DNA of 64,000 nt from Planctomycetota bacterium (GTDB lineage Bacteria > Planctomycetota > Planctomycetia > Pirellulales > Pirellulaceae): contig JAQCHP010000003.1 of assembly GCA_027619595.1 (NCBI GenBank), forward strand, positions 1-64,000, written 5' to 3'. How positions within the stretch are numbered: position 1 is the stretch's first letter; every line of letters starts with the position of its first letter. A program made the position numbers and the translations under genes. This document shows, in pieces, positions 20,992 through 30,989 of the stretch. Under the pieces are notes generated by a model that was not told the DNA's origin, did no database searches, and worked only from the letters and a program-made list of their open reading frames with translations.

Positions 20992-21864
20992 ATGGACTTT
21001 GCAAGTATTTTTTCGGCACGCAAGTTTTGCCTTTCCTTTGAGGTATTCCCGCCTAAGACGGCGGCTGGCGAACAAGCCCTGCTTGTGCATATGGAACGCC
21101 TTGTCGCCTGGCACCCAGCGTTCTTGACGTGTACTTACGGTGCGGGTGGGTCGACGCAGGACACCACGTTGCAGTTGACGACACGGCTCAAGCGTGAATT
21201 CGGCATTCCTGTAGCATCGCATCTCACGTGCGTTGGTTCGTCGCGTGACGAGTTGCGGACGTACCTCCAGCAAGCGAATGTAGCGGGGATCGATAACATC
21301 GTGGCGTTACGAGGCGATCCTCCCAGCGGAGAGACTACGTTTCGGACAGCAGTCGATGGTCTATCGTACGCGAATCAATTGGTGGCTCTGATCTGTGCGG
21401 AATTTCCTCAGTTTGGGATTGCCGTCGGTGGGTATCCCGAAACTCACCAGGAGGCGGCCAGTCCCGAAGCGGATCTGCTGAATCTCAAACGCAAGGTGGA
21501 CGCGGGAGCCGATGTTGTGATTACTCAGCTTTTTTATGACAATCAGGACTTCTTTCGCTTTCGCGACCGTTGCGACGCCGCGGGGATTCGGGTGCCGATT
21601 GTCCCCGGAATTCTGCCGGTCACGAACCTGTCACAAATTCAAAGAATTACCAAGATGTGCGGAGCCAAACTGCCCATACCTCTAATGGAAGAGTTAGCAC
21701 AGGACGAAAGCGAAGACTGGCAGTACCGGTCGGGTGTGAACCACGCGACTCGGCAGGTGGAAGAATTGCTCGCCGGTGGTGTCTCCGGCCTTCATATCTA
21801 CGTGTTGAATAAATCGGCTGCGGCGGTCGACATCTTGTCCGCCCTACCGAACTTCGCTCGGTAG
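20992..21864 (+). CDS. metF: Methylenetetrahydrofolate reductase
   Basis: 290 residues, the usual bacterial length. It reduces 5,10-methylene-THF to 5-methyl-THF, supplying methyl groups for methionine. Motifs: [13 protein letters not shown] at the start, [44 protein letters not shown] (FAD-binding region), [51 protein letters not shown], and C-terminal [13 protein letters not shown]. The FAD barrel is complete. It converges on rpoD with a 21-base overlap of coding ends, and both stops lie in one hairpin. It is not in an operon with metH here. Confidence 0.95.
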
Positions 21865-21869
21865 GGCGG
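21839..21869. terminator. 12-bp perfect hairpin containing both metF and rpoD stop codons
   Basis: Left arm CCGCCCTACCGA (21839-21850), loop ACTTCGC, right arm TCGGTAGGGCGG (21858-21869), perfectly complementary. The rpoD TAG (21844-21846 on the minus strand) is in the left arm and the metF TAG (21862-21864) in the right arm, so the ends of both genes are encoded by the same dyad. There is no T-tract, so it is either a factor-assisted bidirectional terminator or a 3'-end protector. Confidence 0.65.
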
Positions 21870-23460
21870 CCATCTCATCAAATTCCGTTTCTTGGTGCCC
21901 GTCCAGAAAACTCAGCAGCGACTTACTGCGATAGGGTTGTTGCAGCTTGCGGACCGCCTTGGATTCGATTTGACGAACTCGTTCGCGTGTCACAGAGAAG
22001 ATCTTGCCTACCTCTTCCAGTGTGTAGGCGTACCCATCTGCGAGGCCATAACGGAGTCGGATGATTTCGCGTTCGCGATGATTCAAGACTTGCAGGGCGC
22101 TTTCGATTTGTTCTTTGAGTGCCTGTTGGTTGGTGCCGTAAAGTGGATCCACGTCGCGATGGTCTTCCAGGAAATCACCGAAATAGTTTTCGTCGTGGTC
22201 ACTTACCGGTTGATCGAGAGACAGGGGTTGACGGGTCATTTTCAGGATACAACGGGCGTCTTCGACCGAAATCGAAGTTCGCTCAGCAACTTCTTCTGGG
22301 TTGGGTTCCCGGCCTAACTCTTGCAGGAGCTCTTGTGCGACATTGCGCACTTTGCTCATCGTGTCAATCATGTGTACCGGAACACGAATCGTGCGGCTTT
22401 GGTCGGCAATGGCTCGCGTAATCGCCTGCCGGATCCACCACGTGGCATAGGTCGAGAACTTATATCCACGTGCGTGTTCGAACTTGTCTACCGCACGCAT
22501 CAGTCCTGTATTTCCCTCCTGTATCAAGTCCAAGAACGAAACGCCGCGGTTTCGGTATTTCTTGGCAATCGAGACGACCAATCGCAAGTTGGCAGCGCAA
22601 AGGACGCGTTTTGCTGCATCGTAGGCGCGACGGAATACTTCGGTTTGGTAGACGCGACGAGCTAACGTGGCGGGACTTTCCAAAGTGATCCGCATCAAGT
22701 AGTGCAATTCGGCTCGCAGTTCGTCCACCGATTGACCGCTACGAGCAGCCGGATCCTCTGAGCCAAGATGTTCCAAGATGGAGGTCATGCGGGCTGAGAT
22801 ACGGTTCAATTGTTGGAGTACTGGCTGAATCTTTTGTGTACGCAAATTAAGTTCTTCGACCAACGCAGCGGCACGGTAACGGCGTCGCACGAGTCGTTTC
22901 CAGGCAACATGCTTTTCCTTGGCCGAGGTTTTGCGAGAAATGGCGATGTGGTAGTCGCGATAGTTCAATTCGAGCAAGTGACGTAAGGTTTCGACATTGG
23001 GAGTCAAACGTTGCAGTATGCGTTTCTTTTCACGGATGTTCGTTACTGATACTTCAATGGTTCGGTCGAGTCTTAGTTCACCGTCTCGTACTTTTTCCAG
23101 TGAACGCAGTGCTGCTTGGAGGACAAAGTCAGTCCCTAGCATGCTTCGGCGGAAGCGAATTCGAGTGTATTCGATACTGCGTGCTGAAGATATTTCTTCG
23201 GCACGGGTAAGCAGCGGGATCTCTCCCATCTGCATCAGGTACATGCGTATTGGATCGTGCGTGTTGTTCGTGCTGTCGAATTCTTCAGCGACAAATGACT
23301 CCCCATCCAGATCGTCGTCAACGATTGAGTCGTCCACAACTTCGTGAGCAATCTCGTCATCCACGAGGAGGTCATGGGACAGATTTCCATCAAGGTCCAA
23401 ATCTGGCATGCGGTCCATTTTTTTCTTAGTACCGGGTGTGCGGGATTGCTTGACACTCAC
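21844..23460 (-). CDS. rpoD: Primary sigma-70 factor RpoD/SigA
   Basis: 538 residues from GTG 23460, chosen because AAGGAG lies exactly six bases upstream; the frame also opens at GTG 23478, but that start would place the ribosome site inside the gene. Order: a very acidic N-terminal stretch (about residues 18-62), region 1.2 ([26 protein letters not shown]), a spacer of about 180 residues rich in Arg and Leu, region 2 ([53 protein letters not shown]), region 3 ([12 protein letters not shown]) and region 4 ([40 protein letters not shown]). Regions 2.4 and 4.2 are canonical, so standard -35/-10 promoters are expected. Likely essential. Confidence 0.95.
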
Positions 23461-23683
23461 AGGCGACTCCTTCTTCACGGGTGGGGCGATCGGAGGTGGT
23501 TGCTAGACCGACGATCCCACCCAAAGCAGAAGGAGTGCCATGCTGCTCGGCCGACTGTAGGGTTGGCCGTAACGCTCTATTTTGTAAGGACTTAGAAAAA
23601 TTGGATGGGTTGCGGGCAAAGGGGACTATGTGGCATACTGGCCACAGGTGTTGCCAAATCACCTCACCCAGGAGACCTGAGAA

Positions 23684-24478
23684 ATGCCCGGACAAGTACG
23701 CGTGCGCAAGGATCCGCCGAGCGGCACGATCCTGATCGACGATCTGACGCGTCGGAATCCGCTGTCCCGGTCGGTGGTTGATCAGCTGTTGCAGGGATTG
23801 GACGATTTGCGTCAAGAGCCTTCGGTCCGCTGCATCATCATCACCGGCAGCGGCGACATGTTTTCCTCCGGGACAGATTTGGCGGAAGTCGGCGTGGTCC
23901 GCGAAGAAGAAGCCCTCAGCCAAGCGGCGATTTGGCACCAGGATGCACAAAGAATTCGTGACCTGTATTTGAGCTGTTTGCGGCATCCCAAGGTCGTGAT
24001 TGCCGCATTACCTGGTCCGGCGCTCGGAACCGGGGCGGGGCTGGCGATGGCCGCTGACCTCATGTTGGCGACCCCCCAAACCGTATGGGCGTTTCCGGAG
24101 GGGAACCGAGGCTTGGTCGCCGGGTCTGCTATACCACTTGTGGCATTTCGCTGGGGAGCCGGATTCGCGTCTCGTCTATGCGTCGCCGGTTTGCCGCTTA
24201 CAGCCCACCAAGCTCGTGACTTGGGGCTCGTATTGGATGTGGTCTCGCCCGATGACCTCTGGGTAAGGGCGCATGAGTTGGCGGAGGCCATCGCAAAGAA
24301 TTCGCCGTCTAGCCTTTCGCTGGCCAAACGCGTGCTGCTGGAAACTGTCGGTGAGGATTTGGAATCTTTCCTTTCGACAGGTGCCGCCGCGATGGCGACC
24401 GCCCGCACCACTCCGTCGGCTCGCGAAGGAATTCAAGCATTTCTCGACAAACGGCCCCCCGATTGGTTGCGAGAATAA
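23684..24478 (+). CDS. Enoyl-CoA hydratase/isomerase family protein
   Basis: 264 residues; ATG 23684 is preceded by CAGGAG at nine bases. Crotonase-fold motifs: RRNPLSRSVVDQLLQGLDDL, CIIITGSGDMFSSGTDLAEV (first oxyanion loop), VIAALPGPALGTGAGLAMAADLMLATPQTVWAFPEGNRGLVAG (second oxyanion Gly and catalytic loop, where Glu of FPEGNRGL matches one of the hydratase acids), and a C-terminal SLSLAKRVLLETVGEDLESFL helix. It may hydrate or isomerise an acyl-CoA. The neighbouring fatty-acid module begins 45 bases away on the opposite strand, so a link to lipid metabolism is tempting but unproven. A TTGCGG and a CATACT, 18 bases apart (23609-23638), make a weak promoter candidate. Confidence 0.85.
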   Translation: MPGQVRVRKDPPSGTILIDDLTRRNPLSRSVVDQLLQGLDDLRQEPSVRCIIITGSGDMFSSGTDLAEVGVVREEEALSQAAIWHQDAQRIRDLYLSCLRHPKVVIAALPGPALGTGAGLAMAADLMLATPQTVWAFPEGNRGLVAGSAIPLVAFRWGAGFASRLCVAGLPLTAHQARDLGLVLDVVSPDDLWVRAHELAEAIAKNSPSSLSLAKRVLLETVGEDLESFLSTGAAAMATARTTPSAREGIQAFLDKRPPDWLRE

Positions 24479-24522: not shown

Positions 24523-25488
24523 TTACAAATAGACTTCCGCGAAAGTGGCCAATCCGCGAACTTTGGCCATTTCTTTGAGTTTTGCCATCGCTCGCTTTTC
24601 GAGTTGCCGTACGCGTTCCTTGCAAACCCCGAGCAAATTCGCGAGGGCTTGCAGCGAAGGCTTGCTGCCAATCGATTCGTAGCCAAATCGCGCCGATATG
24701 ATCTGCCGTTCGCGTGGGTCAAGTTCATCCAACATCGACTCCAAGGTCTCGTACAGCGTACGCCATTGTTCGGCCGGAAGTCGCGGGAGATGCGAGACAA
24801 AAGCACTTTCGATCAACTGGCTTTGATCGGCCGAAATAAATCGACGGTGACTGACGTGCGCCGCCTCAATGGACCGGAATAACTCGCGACGGACCACCAT
24901 CGTCGCATAGGTGCTGAAGCGAAATCCCCGCGTTTCATCGAACTTTTCCACCGCCCGAATTAACGCCACGATGCCGTCGCTTAATAGTTCGTCAAAGGTA
25001 ACTTCCTTCGTTTTCAGCTGCTTGATAAGCGACATCACAAGTCGTACGTTGGCCGACACCAAAACATCTTGAGTTCGTGACGCTTCGTCTAAGAGCCATT
25101 CCGTGCGGTCCACTAGCGATCGGTCTGGCTTTCGAGGATTCAGCCGAGCACGCAATTGATTGGCTTGATATTTAAGGAAATTCAACCGCCTAAAAAGAAT
25201 GCCTTCCTGCTGGCCGTTTAATAGTTGCGTTTCACACATCCTGGCGAGATGGCTCGGCATCGACGGCCGCAGGCCGGGTCGCTCAAAGGAGCTCAAGTCG
25301 AGCGACTCCAAGAGCTCCGCCTCGTCTTCGGGCAGGCTGCCGAATGCCTTGTTCGGCAAGAACGACAATTCGGAATGAAGCAACCGCTCAATTCGCTCGA
25401 GCAATTTAGGGCATTTCACCGGACTTTCGCCGGCCGCCCGGCTCCGGCGGCCACTACATTTACGGCGGTGGGGCTGAATGGACTGCAT
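24523..25488 (-). CDS. Alternative sigma-70 family factor, divergent region 2
   Basis: 321 residues; ATG 25488 has GGAGG at seven bases. Region 2 is seen in SANVRLVMSLIKQLKTKEVTFDELLSDGIVALIRAVEKFDETRGFRFSTYATMVVRREL, and region 4 in LDPRERQIISARFGYESIGSKPSLQALANLLGVCKERVRQLEKRAMAKLKEMA. Compared with the primary factor, the [10 protein letters not shown] segment reads STYATMVVRR, so the two Trp residues that help open the -10 element are lost. Region 1.2 is not evident. The N-terminal 60 residues are unlike RpoD. It is transcribed away from the CarH-like regulator across a 182-base gap, suggesting the two are regulated together. Probably a planctomycete-specific group 2/3 sigma controlling a stress regulon. 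Confidence 0.88.
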   Translation of the reverse strand: MQSIQPHRRKCSGRRSRAAGESPVKCPKLLERIERLLHSELSFLPNKAFGSLPEDEAELLESLDLSSFERPGLRPSMPSHLARMCETQLLNGQQEGILFRRLNFLKYQANQLRARLNPRKPDRSLVDRTEWLLDEASRTQDVLVSANVRLVMSLIKQLKTKEVTFDELLSDGIVALIRAVEKFDETRGFRFSTYATMVVRRELFRSIEAAHVSHRRFISADQSQLIESAFVSHLPRLPAEQWRTLYETLESMLDELDPRERQIISARFGYESIGSKPSLQALANLLGVCKERVRQLEKRAMAKLKEMAKVRGLATFAEVYL

Positions 25489-25509
25489 GGCACTACCTCC
25501 AGTTTTTTT

Positions 25510-25527
25510 AAACGTTCAAAACGTTCG
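25510..25527. promoter_or_regulatory. Direct repeat in the sigma/regulator intergenic region
   Basis: ACGTTC occurs twice nine bases apart within AAACGTTCAAAACGTTCG, each inside an AACGTT dyad. A related pair (CCGTTGGACAACAATCGTTC) lies near 25628-25647, closer to the regulator start. Repeats of this kind would suit binding of the MerR-type regulator, but no binding site is known. Confidence 0.35.
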
Positions 25528-25670
25528 TAGTCGATTTTATCGAATTCGGCGGTTCCGGCAAGAGATTCCGGGCTTTATCTTTTATTTTTTGGCCATCTCG
25601 GGCGAATCGCCCCTTGCCATATTTGAACCGTTGGACAACAATCGTTCATAACAGTCATCTGGAGTTTCTT

Positions 25671-26528
25671 ATGCAGTCTGTGTCGCCGCGTCAGCTTGCA
25701 CGGGCCATTGGTGCAAGTGAGTCCTCGGTTAAACGTTGGTGCGATCGTGGGTTGGTTGCTAGCTTAAAGACGGCCGGCGGTCACCGACGGCTCCTGTTGT
25801 GCACGATTTTGGAATTCTTGGAAAAACATGGCTATGCGCTAATCCGCCCCGAAGAGATCGGGTTACCGGCTACGGTGGCTGGGCGGTTTCAGTGTGAAGA
25901 AAAACTGCGGGCCGCTTTTAATTTAGCGCTCGAACAGGGAGATCAACGCGTTTGCCGCCGGTTGTTAGCGGAACTACGGTTAGCCGGTTGTCGGATTGAC
26001 TGGATCTGTGATGAGATCCTGGCTGTCGCGATGGAGGCGATTGGCCGACTCTGGCATGCAGGGCAACTCGAAATCTACCAAGAGCGTCGTGCCTGTGAAA
26101 TCGTCGTATCGCTGCTGTGGGAATTGGTCCATTGGACCCCTCCGGTGCCCTTGGATGCCCCAAGTGCGATCGGGTGTGGTTTGGAAGGTGATCACTATGC
26201 CCTCCCGTCCCACATGGTGGAGGTGATCTTGCGTGATGCTGGATGGAACGCCGCTTCGTTGGGTTGCAATGTGCCGATCGAGTCTCTTGCTGCCGCGATG
26301 AGTGCTCATCGTCCTCGCGTGATCTGGATCTGCGTTTCGCACGTGGTAGACAAGGAATCCTTTCTCAGCAAATACGAACAGTTATGGCGATCGGCTCAGC
26401 AGTTGGGAACGGCCGTCGCTGTTGGTGGATATGCCTTGTCGTCCGACCTTCGCAAAAGCATGAGCTATTCGTTTTACGGCGATAAATTTCAGCATTTGGT
26501 CAACTTTGTGACAGAGTTGCAACGTTAG
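25671..26528 (+). CDS. MerR-HTH / B12-binding-domain regulator, CarH/LitR-like
   Basis: 285 residues from ATG 25671, set by TGGAG upstream. Residues 1-60 form a MerR-type HTH (SPRQLARAIGASESSVKRWCDRGLV, TAGGHRRL). Residues about 75-155 are the helical bundle that caps cobalamin in CarH, with WHAGQLEIYQER (W128, H129, E138, R139). Residues 165-285 form a Rossmann-like B12 domain (DHYALPSHMVEVILRDAGWNAASLG, IWICVSHVV, AVAVGGYALS). CarH has W-x9-EH and an E-x-H lower ligand; here the motif is W-x9-ER, and the lower-ligand position appears to be Tyr176, with His175 just before it. So it may bind cobalamin differently or not at all. It heads a run of fatty-acid genes, which fits the LitR/CarH gene neighbourhood. 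Confidence 0.85.
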   Translation: MQSVSPRQLARAIGASESSVKRWCDRGLVASLKTAGGHRRLLLCTILEFLEKHGYALIRPEEIGLPATVAGRFQCEEKLRAAFNLALEQGDQRVCRRLLAELRLAGCRIDWICDEILAVAMEAIGRLWHAGQLEIYQERRACEIVVSLLWELVHWTPPVPLDAPSAIGCGLEGDHYALPSHMVEVILRDAGWNAASLGCNVPIESLAAAMSAHRPRVIWICVSHVVDKESFLSKYEQLWRSAQQLGTAVAVGGYALSSDLRKSMSYSFYGDKFQHLVNFVTELQR

Positions 26529-26571
26529 CTACAATCCCAGCTTTAGATCGACAAAGCTATCAGGAGCCTCA

Positions 26572-27615
26572 ATGGACCAGGATGGAATTCTTCAAGTCGA
26601 TCGTACTCAAGGCGTTATCGATCCAATCGGTGAGCCGTCGGTCGAACGAATGCATCGCAAGTCGACGCAGGCTGTGACTGCTTCGACCGACGAAACGGAG
26701 TATGTAATCGCTTGGGGACGGATTGTGCCCTTCATTCTGCTGCATTTGGCGTGCGGCTTTGTTTTTGTCGTCGGTTGTTCGCCCGCCGCACTCATCGGAC
26801 TCGTTGTTACGTTCTTACTACGAGAATTCGGACTTACGGCGTTTTATCACCGATATTTCTCGCACCGGGCATTCAAGACATCCCGATGGTTTCAGTTCGT
26901 GGGGGCTTGCCTTGGCAGTGCAGCAATCCAGCGGGGACCGCTTTGGTGGGCAGCTCACCATCGTGACCATCATCGTCATTCTGATCACGACGGTGACGTC
27001 CATTCACCGCATCAGCATGGCTTTCTATGGAGTCATATGGGCTGGTTTCTCACGGAAAAAAACTATCGGACCGACTACTCGAAGGTCAAAGATTTTTCCC
27101 GCTTCCCTGAGCTTGTGCTACTGAATCGTTATGACTTTACTGGTCCGGTCCTGTTCGGCATATTGGTCTACGGAATCGGCTGGTGGGTAGGCTATGCTGT
27201 GCCATCTACTGGTACGAGTGGTTGGCAGATGTTGGTATGGGCGTTTGTTGTTTCCACAATTCTCTTGTACCACGTAACCTATGCGATCAATTCGTTAGCT
27301 CATACGTGGGGATCGCGTCGATTTGCTACGGATGACGATAGCCGAAACAACGTCTGGCTGGCATTGGCGGCCGGGGGCGAGGGCTGGCATAACAATCACC
27401 ATCGCTTCCCCGCGTCGGCTCGGCAGGGGGTTTATTGGTGGGAATTCGATACGACCTATTACGTGCTGGTCGTGCTCTCCTGGTTTGGTGTTGTGTGGGG
27501 CTTGCGACAAGTGCCTCGGGAGATACTTGTAGAAGGTCGGGCAGGAACCTTACGTGAAAGATATCGTTCAGCGGGAAACTCGGCGGACGAAGCGTCTGCA
27601 CCCGCTAACGGCTAA
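26572..27615 (+). CDS. Membrane fatty acid desaturase (acyl-CoA delta-9 type)
   Basis: 347 residues; ATG 26572 with CAGGAG seven bases upstream. Three His boxes of the di-iron desaturases are present: HRYFSHR (HX4H), HHRDHHRHSDHDGDVHSP (HXXHH) and WHNNHHRFPASAR (HXXHH). Membrane spans are at FILLHLACGFVFVVGCSPAALIGLVVTFLL, GPVLFGILVYGIGWWVGYAV, MLVWAFVVSTILLYHVTY and YYVLVVLSWFGVVWGL. It inserts a cis double bond into a saturated acyl chain using oxygen. It lies 43 bases after the regulator, so is likely co-transcribed, and would supply the double bond used by the methyltransferase three genes later. Confidence 0.93.
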   Translation: MDQDGILQVDRTQGVIDPIGEPSVERMHRKSTQAVTASTDETEYVIAWGRIVPFILLHLACGFVFVVGCSPAALIGLVVTFLLREFGLTAFYHRYFSHRAFKTSRWFQFVGACLGSAAIQRGPLWWAAHHRDHHRHSDHDGDVHSPHQHGFLWSHMGWFLTEKNYRTDYSKVKDFSRFPELVLLNRYDFTGPVLFGILVYGIGWWVGYAVPSTGTSGWQMLVWAFVVSTILLYHVTYAINSLAHTWGSRRFATDDDSRNNVWLALAAGGEGWHNNHHRFPASARQGVYWWEFDTTYYVLVVLSWFGVVWGLRQVPREILVEGRAGTLRERYRSAGNSADEASAPANG

Positions 27616-27647
27616 TCGAAAGGGATGGCTCCATTATTAACAATGGC

Positions 27648-28913
27648 TTGCGAATTGCAGTCGTCGGGGGCGGAGTGAGCGGCCTATTTGCTGCACGATT
27701 ACTTGCCGCTCAGCATCAAGTTGTTCTCTTCGAAGCCGCAGACTATCTGGGTGGCCATGCTTGCACGTTGCCGATTCAGTTGGACGGGAAATCGTACCCA
27801 GTCGACATTGGCTTCATGGTATTTAACGACCGTACCTATCCGAATTTCTGTCGGTATCTACGCCAATGGCAGATTGCTGTCCGGAGCAGCGACATGAGCT
27901 TCAGCGTTAGCTGCTCGCGTACGGGAATTGAGTTTCAAGGGAGCCGTTGGAGCGGACTGTTTGCCAAGCCGACCAACGCAATCAAGCCACAGTTCTATCG
28001 TATGCTGGCCGGTATTGTTCGATTTAATCGTGTTGTGAATCGTGAAGTCATGGCGGCTACCTGGCTCGGAGCAAGTCCAGATGAATCGCTCGGGGAGTTT
28101 GTTCAGCGCGAGCGATTGTCTGACGATTTTCGCGATCTCTACTTGTTGCCTATGGCTTCCGCAATTTGGTCGGCCCAGCCATGCGACATATTGAAGATGC
28201 CAGCGCGGTTCCTTTTGCAGTTCTTTCATAACCACGGCCTAACGCAACTACGTAACCGTCCGCAATGGTATACCATTGAGGGTGGCGCACAGAGGTACAT
28301 TCAACACATGATATCGGACGGGAGTTTTGACATTCGCCTCAATTGCCTCGTGGAACGGATAGAGAGAGACGGCCAAGTCGTGAACTTGCACGCGCAGGGC
28401 CGCCAGTGGGTGTTTGATCGAATCGTCCTGGGTTTGCACGCGGATCAAGCGTTGCGTTTCTTGCCGGATGCGAGTGATGACGAACGATCGATATTGGGAA
28501 GCTTTCACTATCAAGACAATGACGTCGTGTTACACACGGACTCCGGACAAATGCCCCAGTCACGCGCTGCTTGGGCGAGTTGGAACTATCGTGTGTCCCC
28601 TGAATCGGGACAAGGACCCACAGTGACCTATTGGCTGAATTCGCTGCAGGGACACGATACCACCGTCCCTCTACTCGTGACGCTTAATCCTCGCCAAAAA
28701 ATAGCGAAGCGTTACGTTCTGCGGCAAGTGACACTTCGTCATCCTGTCTTTAGTCGTGGAACATGGGCGGCGCAGAGACGCCTGCCACAGATACAAGGAG
28801 ATCGAAATACATTCTATTGCGGCGCCTATTGGGGGAACGGATTTCACGAAGATGGCGTACGCAGCGCTGTCGCTGTTGCTAAACAATTGGGAGTTGATCA
28901 AGGCCATGAATAG
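27648..28913 (+). CDS. FAD-dependent amine-oxidase-like oxidoreductase
   Basis: About 421 residues. The N-terminal dinucleotide site is RIAVVGGGVSGLFAARLLA, with a following acidic residue (VVLFEAADYLGGHA) as in FAD-binding NAD(P)/FAD oxidoreductases; PVDIGFMVFNDRTYPNF and a C-terminal FYCGAYWGNGFHEDGVRSAV close the FAD fold. This family regularly sits with DUF1365 and a cyclopropane-type methyltransferase; a relative (UfaD) acts in furan fatty acid synthesis in alphaproteobacteria, as I recall. The start is odd: TTG 27648 has no ribosome site, the nearest ATG (27643) is out of frame, and AAAGGGA at 27619-27625 is well spaced only for ATT 27633. It overlaps the next gene by eight bases. Confidence 0.88.
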   Translation: MRIAVVGGGVSGLFAARLLAAQHQVVLFEAADYLGGHACTLPIQLDGKSYPVDIGFMVFNDRTYPNFCRYLRQWQIAVRSSDMSFSVSCSRTGIEFQGSRWSGLFAKPTNAIKPQFYRMLAGIVRFNRVVNREVMAATWLGASPDESLGEFVQRERLSDDFRDLYLLPMASAIWSAQPCDILKMPARFLLQFFHNHGLTQLRNRPQWYTIEGGAQRYIQHMISDGSFDIRLNCLVERIERDGQVVNLHAQGRQWVFDRIVLGLHADQALRFLPDASDDERSILGSFHYQDNDVVLHTDSGQMPQSRAAWASWNYRVSPESGQGPTVTYWLNSLQGHDTTVPLLVTLNPRQKIAKRYVLRQVTLRHPVFSRGTWAAQRRLPQIQGDRNTFYCGAYWGNGFHEDGVRSAVAVAKQLGVDQGHE

Positions 28914-29715
28914 TTGTCTTTATTCAGGCTTTGTGTCGCATCGGAGGTCTAGCCCTGTCGCCAATAGGTTTCGCTATCCTCTCTATATGTTGTATCTGGA
29001 TTTGGCCGAATTCGATCGGATTTCCAGGGAATGTAGTTTGGTTTCGAGTCGTCGATTTGCGCCGTTCTGTGTTCGGGGTGTTGATCATCCTCAGTTGCGT
29101 GATGGTGCCCGGTCGTCTTCTGCATCAAATGAAGTATCGGGTAATGCAGAAGAATGGGCGAATCGTATTCGACAACTCGTCGAACGACGATTGTCGATTA
29201 GCGTTCCGGGCAACGTTTGTCTCTTAACCTTTCCGCGAAATTGGGGCTACTATTTTGCACCGCTCAACCTGTACTACTGCTTTCAGGATGGAAATCGATC
29301 GTTGCGGGCGATAGTAGCGGAGGTGAGTAATACACCGTGGTTGGAAACGCATTATTACGTACTGGACTGTCAGCAGAATGCAGTGCGATCAGGCTATCGC
29401 AATCAACAAGCTAAGCAATTTCATGTTTCTCCTTTTCTACCAATCGAAGGCAACTACAACTGGCGATGGAATGACCCAGGAGAAACGTTGAGGATTACCA
29501 TCGAGACTTCTTGTATCGATCCACCTTTTGTGGCGCGTATGTGGATGCGTCGTCAGGTACTTAACAACCAGACTTTGCTTCGCCTATTGCGGCAGAACCC
29601 GTGGCAGAGCGGATCAGTATCAACTCTTATTTATTGGCAAGCACTTCGGCTTTGGATGAAAAAATGTCCGTATTTCCCCCACCCACGCAACCAAGCAAGT
29701 TCTCCGACGCCCTAG
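28906..29715 (+). CDS. DUF1365 family protein
   Basis: 269 residues from ATG 28906, which overlaps the stop of the FAD gene (ATGAATAG), suggesting translational coupling. Family motifs: LYSGFVSHRRSSPVANRFRYPLYMLYLDL at the start, VCLLTFPRNWGYYFAPLNLYYCF in the middle, AIVAEVSNTPWLETHYYVL, KQFHVSPFLPIEGNYNWRW, and a C-terminal helix. The function of DUF1365 is not established; its constant company is the FAD oxidoreductase and the cyclopropane-type synthase, so a role in modified fatty acid formation or delivery is inferred. No signal peptide is seen. Confidence 0.9.
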   Translation: MNSCLYSGFVSHRRSSPVANRFRYPLYMLYLDLAEFDRISRECSLVSSRRFAPFCVRGVDHPQLRDGARSSSASNEVSGNAEEWANRIRQLVERRLSISVPGNVCLLTFPRNWGYYFAPLNLYYCFQDGNRSLRAIVAEVSNTPWLETHYYVLDCQQNAVRSGYRNQQAKQFHVSPFLPIEGNYNWRWNDPGETLRITIETSCIDPPFVARMWMRRQVLNNQTLLRLLRQNPWQSGSVSTLIYWQALRLWMKKCPYFPHPRNQASSPTP

Positions 29716-30989
29716 GCCGATCCGAAGAACGGGCAGGGCATCGGTCGCCGGAGAATTGGTACGATCGCCTCGCGCGTCAGGCGATCTGGGCCGGTTTGGC
29801 GCGATTGCAGATCGGACAACTTTCGTTCCAAGACGAAGAGCGGCGACAAACTTTCCCAGCGGAACCCGTCGGTGATTTGAGAGCCGACCTGCGGGTGCTC
29901 GATCCGCGGTTCTATCGCAAAGTCTTGTTCGGGGGTGGTTTAGGCGTGGCGGACGCTTACGTCGAGGGTTGGTGGGATTCCGCTGATTTAGTCGGCTTGC
30001 TTCAACTGGCGGCCAAGAATGCGCAATGGCTCGCAAGCTTGCAAGGTTCCATCTCGAAATGGGTTGCGTTCCCGTCGGTCTGGGGGCATCGGTGGCGGCG
30101 AAACACTTTGCAAGGTAGTCGACGCAATATTGCGGATCACTATGACCTCAGCAACGACTTCTTTCAAGAATGGCTCGATCCCACGATGACGTATTCCGCC
30201 GCACTATTTGAGTCAGAAAGCGATTCATTAGAGACGGCTCAGCGGGCAAAATACGATCGCTTAGCGCAGAGTCTCGCTATTTCCGCTTCCGATCGAGTTT
30301 TGGAGATCGGGACCGGTTGGGGTGGATTTGCCTTGCACCTCGCTGAGAAATATGGCGTACATGTGACGACAACCACCATTTCCCCATCGCAGTACAAATT
30401 CGCCGGCGAACGTGTTCGTGCTGCCGGGCTACAAGATCGCATAACGCTTTTGAACCAAGATTATCGACAAGTGACGGGTCTCTATGACAAACTGGTTTCC
30501 GTGGAAATGATCGAGGCGGTCGGCCATGAATTTCTTCCGGAATTCTTTCGTTGCTGCTCGCAGCTTCTGAAACCATCCGGTCTGATGGCGCTCCAGGCGA
30601 TTACCATTCCTGATCAGCGATACGCGGAGTACCTGCGCAGTATCGACTTTATTCGAAAGTACGTTTTTCCGGGCGGCTGTCTGCCCAGCCATGGCTCGAT
30701 GTTGGCGGCTATTCAATCGTCGACCGATATGCGCATCGTCGGATTGCACGATTTCGCTCATCACTACGCGCAGACATTGCGAATGTGGAGTCAACAATTT
30801 GAGTTGCGCTTGAATCGGATTCGAGAGATCATGCCGTCGCCAAGGTTCCATCGGATTTGGCGCTACTATTTGGCCTATTGCGAAGCAGGCTTTCGTGAGC
30901 AATTGATCGGTTTGTCGCAAATAGTGCTCGCAAAGCCCGAGTTCTGCGGCCAACTACCCGTCGTGGGGATCCGGTCGCCGCAGTGTTAG
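29664..30989 (+). CDS. Cyclopropane-fatty-acyl-phospholipid synthase family methyltransferase
   Basis: 441 residues from ATG 29664 (GGATG nearby); it overlaps the DUF1365 gene by 52 bases. Motif order: an N-terminal SCP2-like part (DLRVLDPRFYRKVLFGGGLGVADAYVEGWWDS), then NIADHYDLSNDFFQEWLDPTMTYSAALFE, SAM-binding VLEIGTGWGGFALHLAEKYG, TTISPSQYKFA, YDKLVSVEMIEAVGHEFLPEFF (active-site Glu), and FIRKYVFPGGCLPS. It transfers a methyl from S-adenosylmethionine to a cis double bond of membrane lipids, yielding cyclopropane or methyl-branched acyl chains. Last gene of the regulator-desaturase run. Confidence 0.94.
   Translation: MSVFPPPTQPSKFSDALGRSEERAGHRSPENWYDRLARQAIWAGLARLQIGQLSFQDEERRQTFPAEPVGDLRADLRVLDPRFYRKVLFGGGLGVADAYVEGWWDSADLVGLLQLAAKNAQWLASLQGSISKWVAFPSVWGHRWRRNTLQGSRRNIADHYDLSNDFFQEWLDPTMTYSAALFESESDSLETAQRAKYDRLAQSLAISASDRVLEIGTGWGGFALHLAEKYGVHVTTTTISPSQYKFAGERVRAAGLQDRITLLNQDYRQVTGLYDKLVSVEMIEAVGHEFLPEFFRCCSQLLKPSGLMALQAITIPDQRYAEYLRSIDFIRKYVFPGGCLPSHGSMLAAIQSSTDMRIVGLHDFAHHYAQTLRMWSQQFELRLNRIREIMPSPRFHRIWRYYLAYCEAGFREQLIGLSQIVLAKPEFCGQLPVVGIRSPQC

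Follow-up and report, generated by a model that had tools for sequence, protein, structure and literature searches.

A sigma factor and a CarH/LitR-like regulator that lacks the cobalt-ligating histidine, paired at a predicted furan-lipid locus of a planctomycete and linked by a candidate direct-repeat operator

We analysed a 64,000-nucleotide stretch of DNA from a planctomycete of the family Pirellulaceae (contig JAQCHP010000003.1, positions 1 to 64,000; the window, below), in which a sigma factor gene (SIG) is divergent from a gene for a MerR/B12-type regulator (REG) that leads a run of genes for a desaturase (DES), an FAD oxidoreductase (FAD), a DUF1365 protein and a methyltransferase (CFA). 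We think it probable that the locus forms a module for photo-oxidative defence, in which the FAD–DUF1365–CFA trio and DES make a furan lipid while REG represses SIG and its own run. The enzyme cluster is of a kind already known; the new part is the control, that is, the REG/SIG pair and its operator. This reading builds on comparison of gene content and order, of the operator with its placement and its link to REG, and of a complete B12-type fold from which the cobalt-ligating histidine has been lost.

In the mechanism that we propose, DES would introduce a double bond into an acyl chain, the UfaM-like CFA would methylate the unsaturated chain, the UfaD-like FAD would desaturate the methylated chain, and the UfaO-like DUF1365 protein would add oxygen from O2 and close the furan ring in a membrane phospholipid. 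REG would be a CarH/LitR-type repressor, arranged head to tail on 9-bp repeats where transcription of SIG and of REG-DES-FAD-DUF1365-CFA begins, and also on unlinked targets, namely a fasciclin gene and a pair encoding a pyrroloquinoline quinone (PQQ) protein and DUF1295. A signal would then release REG, SIG and the run would be expressed, and SIG, as a second tier, would transcribe further genes.

Results

A candidate operator that follows the regulator

The host genome is a draft (5.18 Mb, 281 contigs, 96.4% complete), which we compared with 197 genomes of the same order; 71 of these have REG, taken as matches above about 200 bits, and the remaining 126 do not. A dyad count on 90 regions upstream of REG genes returned the motif AAWCGTTCAAAWCGTTCA, with two half-sites 9 bp apart. 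CGTTC pairs within 40 bp of one another stand at exactly this spacing in 51 of 61 cases, the repeat is present with at most two mismatches in 57 of the 90 regions (0.28 in shuffles), and 33 regions hold at least two copies. In relatives it adjoins the -10-like elements of both the divergent gene and REG, a position common for repressors. Head-to-tail binding to direct repeats of 9 bp, AATTNNNNC, is known from BldC (PMC5859096), and the REG operator is likely to be a 9-bp direct repeat of the same kind, AAWCGTTCAAAWCGTTC.

The window has two such sites in the 182 bp between SIG and REG. O1, the candidate REG operator (25510..25527, plus strand; direct repeat AAACGTTCAAAACGTTCG), matches the 17-mer exactly, 22 bp upstream of the SIG start codon. 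It lies just past the -10 (25534-25539) of a promoter-like site for SIG (TTGCCG-N16-TAAAAT, 25534..25561, minus strand), where SIG transcription would start. O2 is a weaker operator-like site, recognized by comparison with relatives (25642..25657, plus strand; TCGTTCATAACAGTCA, three mismatches); it adjoins the -10 (25637-25642) of a promoter-like site for REG (TTGCCA-N17-AACAAT, 25614..25642, plus strand), where relatives have their second operator. Both promoter-like sites came from a consensus scan made independently of the operator search, and taken alone they are no evidence of function.

The distribution of the exact 17-mer AAWCGTTCAAAWCGTTC indicates whose operator it is. It occurs 38 times in the 197 genomes (reversed control, 0), in 30 of the 71 REG genomes and in none of the 126 others (Fisher test, 4e-16, from counts that ignore relatedness), and by comparison of coordinates 33 of the 38 sites adjoin REG or SIG. 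A repeat so close to the SIG start and beside -10-like elements might instead be a promoter or binding site of SIG itself or of a third regulator, an explanation to which we give hardly any weight. The site is found at SIG in eight genomes where REG is unlinked (G002, G003, G040, G058, G075, G081, G110 and G130), and it was not found in G015, G094 and G098, where SIG is divergent from FAD and the genome has no REG, on which ground we rejected it as a SIG promoter. It is also found at REG loci where SIG is not adjacent, and its 9-bp spacing is the mode of BldC, to which the REG winged helix is related. Because the site stands at SIG when REG is unlinked and is missing from SIG when REG is absent, the repeat tracks REG, and SIG is likely to be one of its targets. 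In one further genome, G128 (contig C1, 1534743-1535288), an operator-like site and SIG lie beside broken REG fragments, with an intact REG elsewhere in the genome.

A complete B12-type domain without the cobalt ligand

REG (25671..26528, plus strand) joins a BldC/MerR-type winged helix to a complete B12-type domain, as judged by Pfam and by a structure model of high confidence (predicted local distance difference test score, 93). In superpositions, model residues 74-285 overlay CtMerR (Z 27), photocobilins (Z 25) and CarH (Z 21), and, as in CtMerR (8JBS) and Thermus CarH, the winged helix is combined with a helical bundle and a B12 Rossmann domain that keeps GxxW and GxxxP. The B12-binding match reaches 30.5 bits, under the Pfam cut-off of 32.1, though the predicted fold is complete. 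The NCBIfam CarH model scores 34.6 on REG against a cut-off of 400; no protein in the 197 genomes exceeds that cut-off, a weak negative since the Thermus control also falls under it.

Four signatures are common to light-responsive B12 domains: GxxW, EH, GxxH and GxxxP (PMC11796333). Two of them are kept throughout the REG family, with G125, W128, G198 and P202 present in all 97 distinct planctomycete sequences. The other two distinguish the family from the CarH/LitR photoreceptors, GxxY standing for GxxH and ER for EH. At position 176, where CarH has its cobalt-ligating histidine, we found tyrosine in 94 sequences, phenylalanine in two, serine in one and histidine in none; Tyr176 formed part of no search pattern. 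The EH pair, which caps the adenosyl group, is replaced by ER in 97 of 97 sequences, a count partly biased by one search pattern, although the first 14 sequences, found without that pattern, also have ER. The histidine is missing from more distant REG paralogues too, and across these alignments its loss is a family-wide, conserved replacement and not the decay of a single gene. The proposal that REG is an atypical LitR/CarH-like regulator, made in a preliminary description of this DNA, withstood comparison: the fold is complete, but two of its hallmark motifs are altered.

Eight residues are invariant over the 97 sequences (W128, E138, R139, D174, G198, P202, G252 and G253), and this suggests a ligand, while the loss of the histidine counts against ordinary CarH photochemistry; REG may hold a corrinoid, another tetrapyrrole or nothing. 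It is quite possible, if not what we would expect, that the domain is a ligand-free platform for oligomerization or for docking a partner such as a LOV protein, with the signal coming from elsewhere. The absence of the histidine from every homologue and from the distant paralogues fits such a platform, and the class II LitR of Pseudomonas dispenses with B12 and relies on a LOV protein (PMC9758184). Of the B12-type fold that LitR, however, retains the helical bundle alone, whereas REG keeps the whole fold, and we lean towards a ligand because the fold is retained together with the eight invariant residues. The presence of the full domain also led us to reject REG as a class II LitR, which would have the bundle without the B12 Rossmann domain.

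A bolder proposal, which we hold to be somewhat doubtful, is that REG is the first of a class of CarH-like sensors in planctomycetes in which Tyr176, with Arg139 near it, holds a corrinoid or a different tetrapyrrole such as heme or a porphyrin. Such a protein would be a switch responding to light or redox state, with a coordination chemistry that is new, and would use 9-bp direct repeats in the manner of BldC to repress a furan-lipid regulon and the SIG gene, whose product lacks region 3.

A sigma factor paired with the regulator

SIG (24523..25488, minus strand) encodes a sigma-70 family factor with regions 2 and 4 and an N-terminal extension, according to Pfam and a structure model. No region 3 is recognizable by Pfam, and the model leaves no room for one. 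Its nearest named models are of RpoD/RpoS type. These matches, the long N-terminal extension and the absence of ChrR among the scanned neighbours led us to reject an extracytoplasmic function (ECF) identity of the sigma-E/ChrR kind (ECF11).

Of the 70 REG loci whose upstream sequence is long enough, 24 have the divergent SIG–REG pair. An adjacency this infrequent would suit a chance or unrelated neighbour that lies outside the lipid regulon, which we consider very unlikely. Distant REG paralogues also have the pair (9 of 15 loci), SIG is divergent from FAD at five loci without an adjacent REG, and the REG operator stays at SIG in the eight genomes where the two genes are unlinked. Dedicated sigma control had been suggested for this locus. 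The association proved real, with an operator-like repeat between the genes and recurrence across planctomycetes, among them the cultured relative Adhaeretor mobilis HG15A2 (L150); what comparison puts at SIG is the operator of REG, and it does not show SIG driving the operon.

A faint element, TGGTCA-N14-TCTACAAA, lies upstream of FAD at four of the loci where SIG and FAD are divergent (L034, L040, L041 and L049); seen at so few loci, it is a lead to a candidate SIG promoter. Two genes from SIG, the window also encodes a full RpoD-like sigma factor (21844-23478, minus strand; 544 amino acids; regions 1.2, 2, 3 and 4), and an enoyl-CoA hydratase gene (23684-24478) sits between the two.

The enzymes and their predicted product

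From REG onward, successive genes are separated by 43 and 32 bp and then overlap by 8 and 52 bp. DES (26572..27615, plus strand) is an SCD1-like acyl desaturase with three His boxes (Pfam FA_desaturase; 4ymk, E 9e-32), FAD (27648..28913, plus strand) is a UfaD-type FAD oxidoreductase of the Amino_oxidase fold by its Pfam match, DUF1365 (28906..29715, plus strand) is a UfaO-type protein (Pfam DUF1365, 230 bits), and CFA (29664..30989, plus strand) is a UfaM-type S-adenosylmethionine-dependent fatty acyl methyltransferase (Pfam CMAS, 276 bits). All six genes are intact with the spacings first described, and the Pfam families over the locus (Sigma70_r2/r4, B12-binding_2, B12-binding, FA_desaturase, Amino_oxidase, DUF1365 and CMAS) agree with every name they had been given. 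REG and the enzyme genes are likely to share one transcript.

DUF1365 is present in 70 of the 197 genomes, and at all 60 DUF1365 loci examined in an order-wide sample FAD and CFA adjoin it on the same strand, a grouping far beyond chance. It also keeps company with REG, occurring in 46 of the 71 REG genomes and 24 of the 126 others (p 1.6e-10, ignoring phylogeny).

By protein family, the trio is the UfaD–UfaO–UfaM set, all three families occurring together at the locus. UfaO contains DUF1365, and UfaM, UfaD and UfaO are sufficient for furan fatty acid synthesis (PMC7380195). A furan fatty acid is our best prediction from these assignments, favoured because DUF1365 belongs to the family of the furan-forming enzyme UfaO; cyclopropane and 10-methyl acids are less likely. 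The unusual membrane fatty acid first proposed here thus gains adjacent UfaM-, UfaD- and UfaO-type genes, while two of the products then listed lose ground and the part of DUF1365 as UfaO had been overlooked.

We weighed those two products further, and think it unlikely that the locus makes a cyclopropane or 10-methyl (tuberculostearic-like) acid with FAD as a reductase and DUF1365 as an accessory protein. CFA does match cyclopropane synthase models, at 261 bits and under their 400-bit cut-off, and retains the catalytic Glu and Tyr. It has, however, Gln and Ala where Escherichia coli CFA synthase has the bicarbonate-site His and a Cys (H266 and C139), and EAVG in place of EHVG; on the Gln and Ala we rejected CFA as a canonical cyclopropane fatty acid synthase. 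EAVG and the Gln are shared by enzymes that accompany the trio in other phyla, namely in Acinetobacter, Pseudoalteromonas, Streptomyces and Cupriavidus. The oxidases BfaA and TmsA of 10-methyl fatty acid synthesis are of the PF01565 type, whereas FAD matched PF01593 (Amino_oxidase) with no PF01565 match in the Pfam scan, and its closest solved relative is LkcE; FAD being of another fold, the BfaA/BfaB and TmsA/TmsB systems were also rejected. The only tested pathways, moreover, give DUF1365 the UfaO role (PMC7380195).

A second methyltransferase, a possible FufM, was sought in the host genome and returned just two matches, both weak at 20-22 bits (cut-off, 27). At 42 of the 60 related loci (L034-L093) the trio has another, weaker CFA-like methyltransferase in its neighbourhood, often accompanied by DUF1295; this may be a FufM-like enzyme that makes dimethyl furans.

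A desaturase in one operon with the trio had been thought special. That idea did not survive, and we do not count it as a novelty: Acinetobacter plasmids carry desaturase-FAD-DUF1365-CFA-DUF1295-methyltransferase, with the same order of the four enzymes, and a same-strand desaturase accompanies the trio at 9 of the 60 planctomycete loci. By this comparison the metabolic part, desaturase included, is an ordinary module of known kind. The plasmid block differs from the window in having no adjacent REG or SIG, and a histidine kinase gene follows it. It lies on mobilizable plasmids, p1AsACE of Acinetobacter schindleri (L249, 2483-12143) and p4 of A. haemolyticus (L255, 5331-12143), accompanied by a lipocalin gene and, in the case of p1AsACE, by one for a cryptochrome/photolyase, and is likely to be a mobile furan-lipid module.

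Other likely targets

Four of the five remaining 17-mer sites, in three genomes, are at fasciclin genes, with an MsrA-like gene nearby in two genomes and DUF2867 in one. The MsrA-like genes (L287, 5144-5665; L288, 6262-6855) would fit an oxidative-stress regulon; they were recognized from their GCFW motif rather than from a profile.

In the host, the best second non-coding site has one mismatch and lies at position 6673 of contig C265, with a fasciclin gene on one side, a PQQ-propeller/DUF1295 pair on the other, and flanking genes for an SDR protein and a DUF2867-TspO fusion. The region from DUF2867-TspO through SDR, fasciclin, the operator-like site and the PQQ propeller to DUF1295 (L225, 2669-9102 of that contig) would make a second likely REG target locus. 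It is unusual for TspO to be fused to an NmrA/DUF2867 protein, and the fusion may point to tetrapyrroles. DUF1295 often lies near the trio in relatives; the host copy is on this other contig under what seems to be the same operator. Fasciclin and PQQ–DUF1295 families neighbour REG or the trio elsewhere, and REG has further recurrent neighbours in photolyase, SRPBCC, DUF1731-SDR and DCC1-like genes, company that by analogy resembles light and singlet-oxygen regulons (PMC9758184, PMC6852236). The other one-mismatch sites in the host (C87, C161 and C23) and one site in G024 lie inside coding sequence and were taken as chance.

Discussion

The control circuit described here combines features known from several systems. 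First, the UfaM-UfaD-UfaO genes of Rhodobacter sphaeroides and Rhodopseudomonas palustris (PMC7380195) belong to the same three families and are likewise adjacent, a likeness at family level, sequences having been aligned only with other trio-linked proteins; the planctomycete run differs in including a desaturase and in having REG and SIG instead of sigma-E/ChrR. Second, Pseudomonas has light-controlled ufaM clusters under LitR-type regulators, and there a class II LitR gene stands, as REG does, beside FAD oxidoreductase and UfaM genes (PMC9758184); REG differs in its full B12 fold and its paired sigma gene. Third, Streptomyces BldC has a related winged helix and 9-bp direct-repeat sites (PMC5859096) but no sensory domain, whereas REG has one; for REG the BldC binding mode is a prediction. 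Finally, in the sigma-E/ChrR (ECF11) regulon (PMC6852236), and with LitR and an ECF sigma factor in Streptomyces coelicolor (cited in PMC9758184), a response to light or singlet oxygen links furan-lipid or pigment genes to an alternative sigma factor, as we propose here; in contrast to these ECF systems, SIG has RpoD/RpoS-type matches, an N-terminal extension, no region 3 and no adjacent ChrR. A limited literature search, of partial coverage, found no description of the REG family, its operator or the REG–SIG pair.

Several points weigh against a REG-controlled photo-oxidative defence module. REG fails two of the four light-sensor signatures (EH and GxxH), and therefore light need not be its signal. 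The repeat is missing from 33 of the 90 REG upstream regions, and relatedness among the genomes may account for part of its link to REG. Repression is favoured over activation because of where the operator lies; REG may nevertheless be an activator. A single transcript stays unproven because a promoter-like site directly precedes DES (GTGACA-N16-TACAAT, 26508-26535, plus strand, 10 of 12 consensus matches in the scan), which could be an internal promoter and could uncouple the enzymes from REG. Lastly, no photolyase was found in the host genome, so we rejected it as a member of the host regulon. We infer the furan product, repression as the direction of control, what SIG transcribes and the nature of the signal, be it light, singlet oxygen or the state of a tetrapyrrole, and continue to regard the defence module as the probable reading.

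B12-type photoreceptors are defined by the histidine that holds cobalt, and here a large, conserved family has the fold and most of the contact residues and never that histidine. The readable operator and regulon make the ligand and the signal of the REG domain directly testable, and an anonymous sigma factor gains a testable place in a stress response. Furan fatty acids in other bacteria scavenge singlet oxygen generated by light, and a furan-lipid defence known from proteobacteria would, if our prediction of the product is right, extend to planctomycetes under another control circuit.

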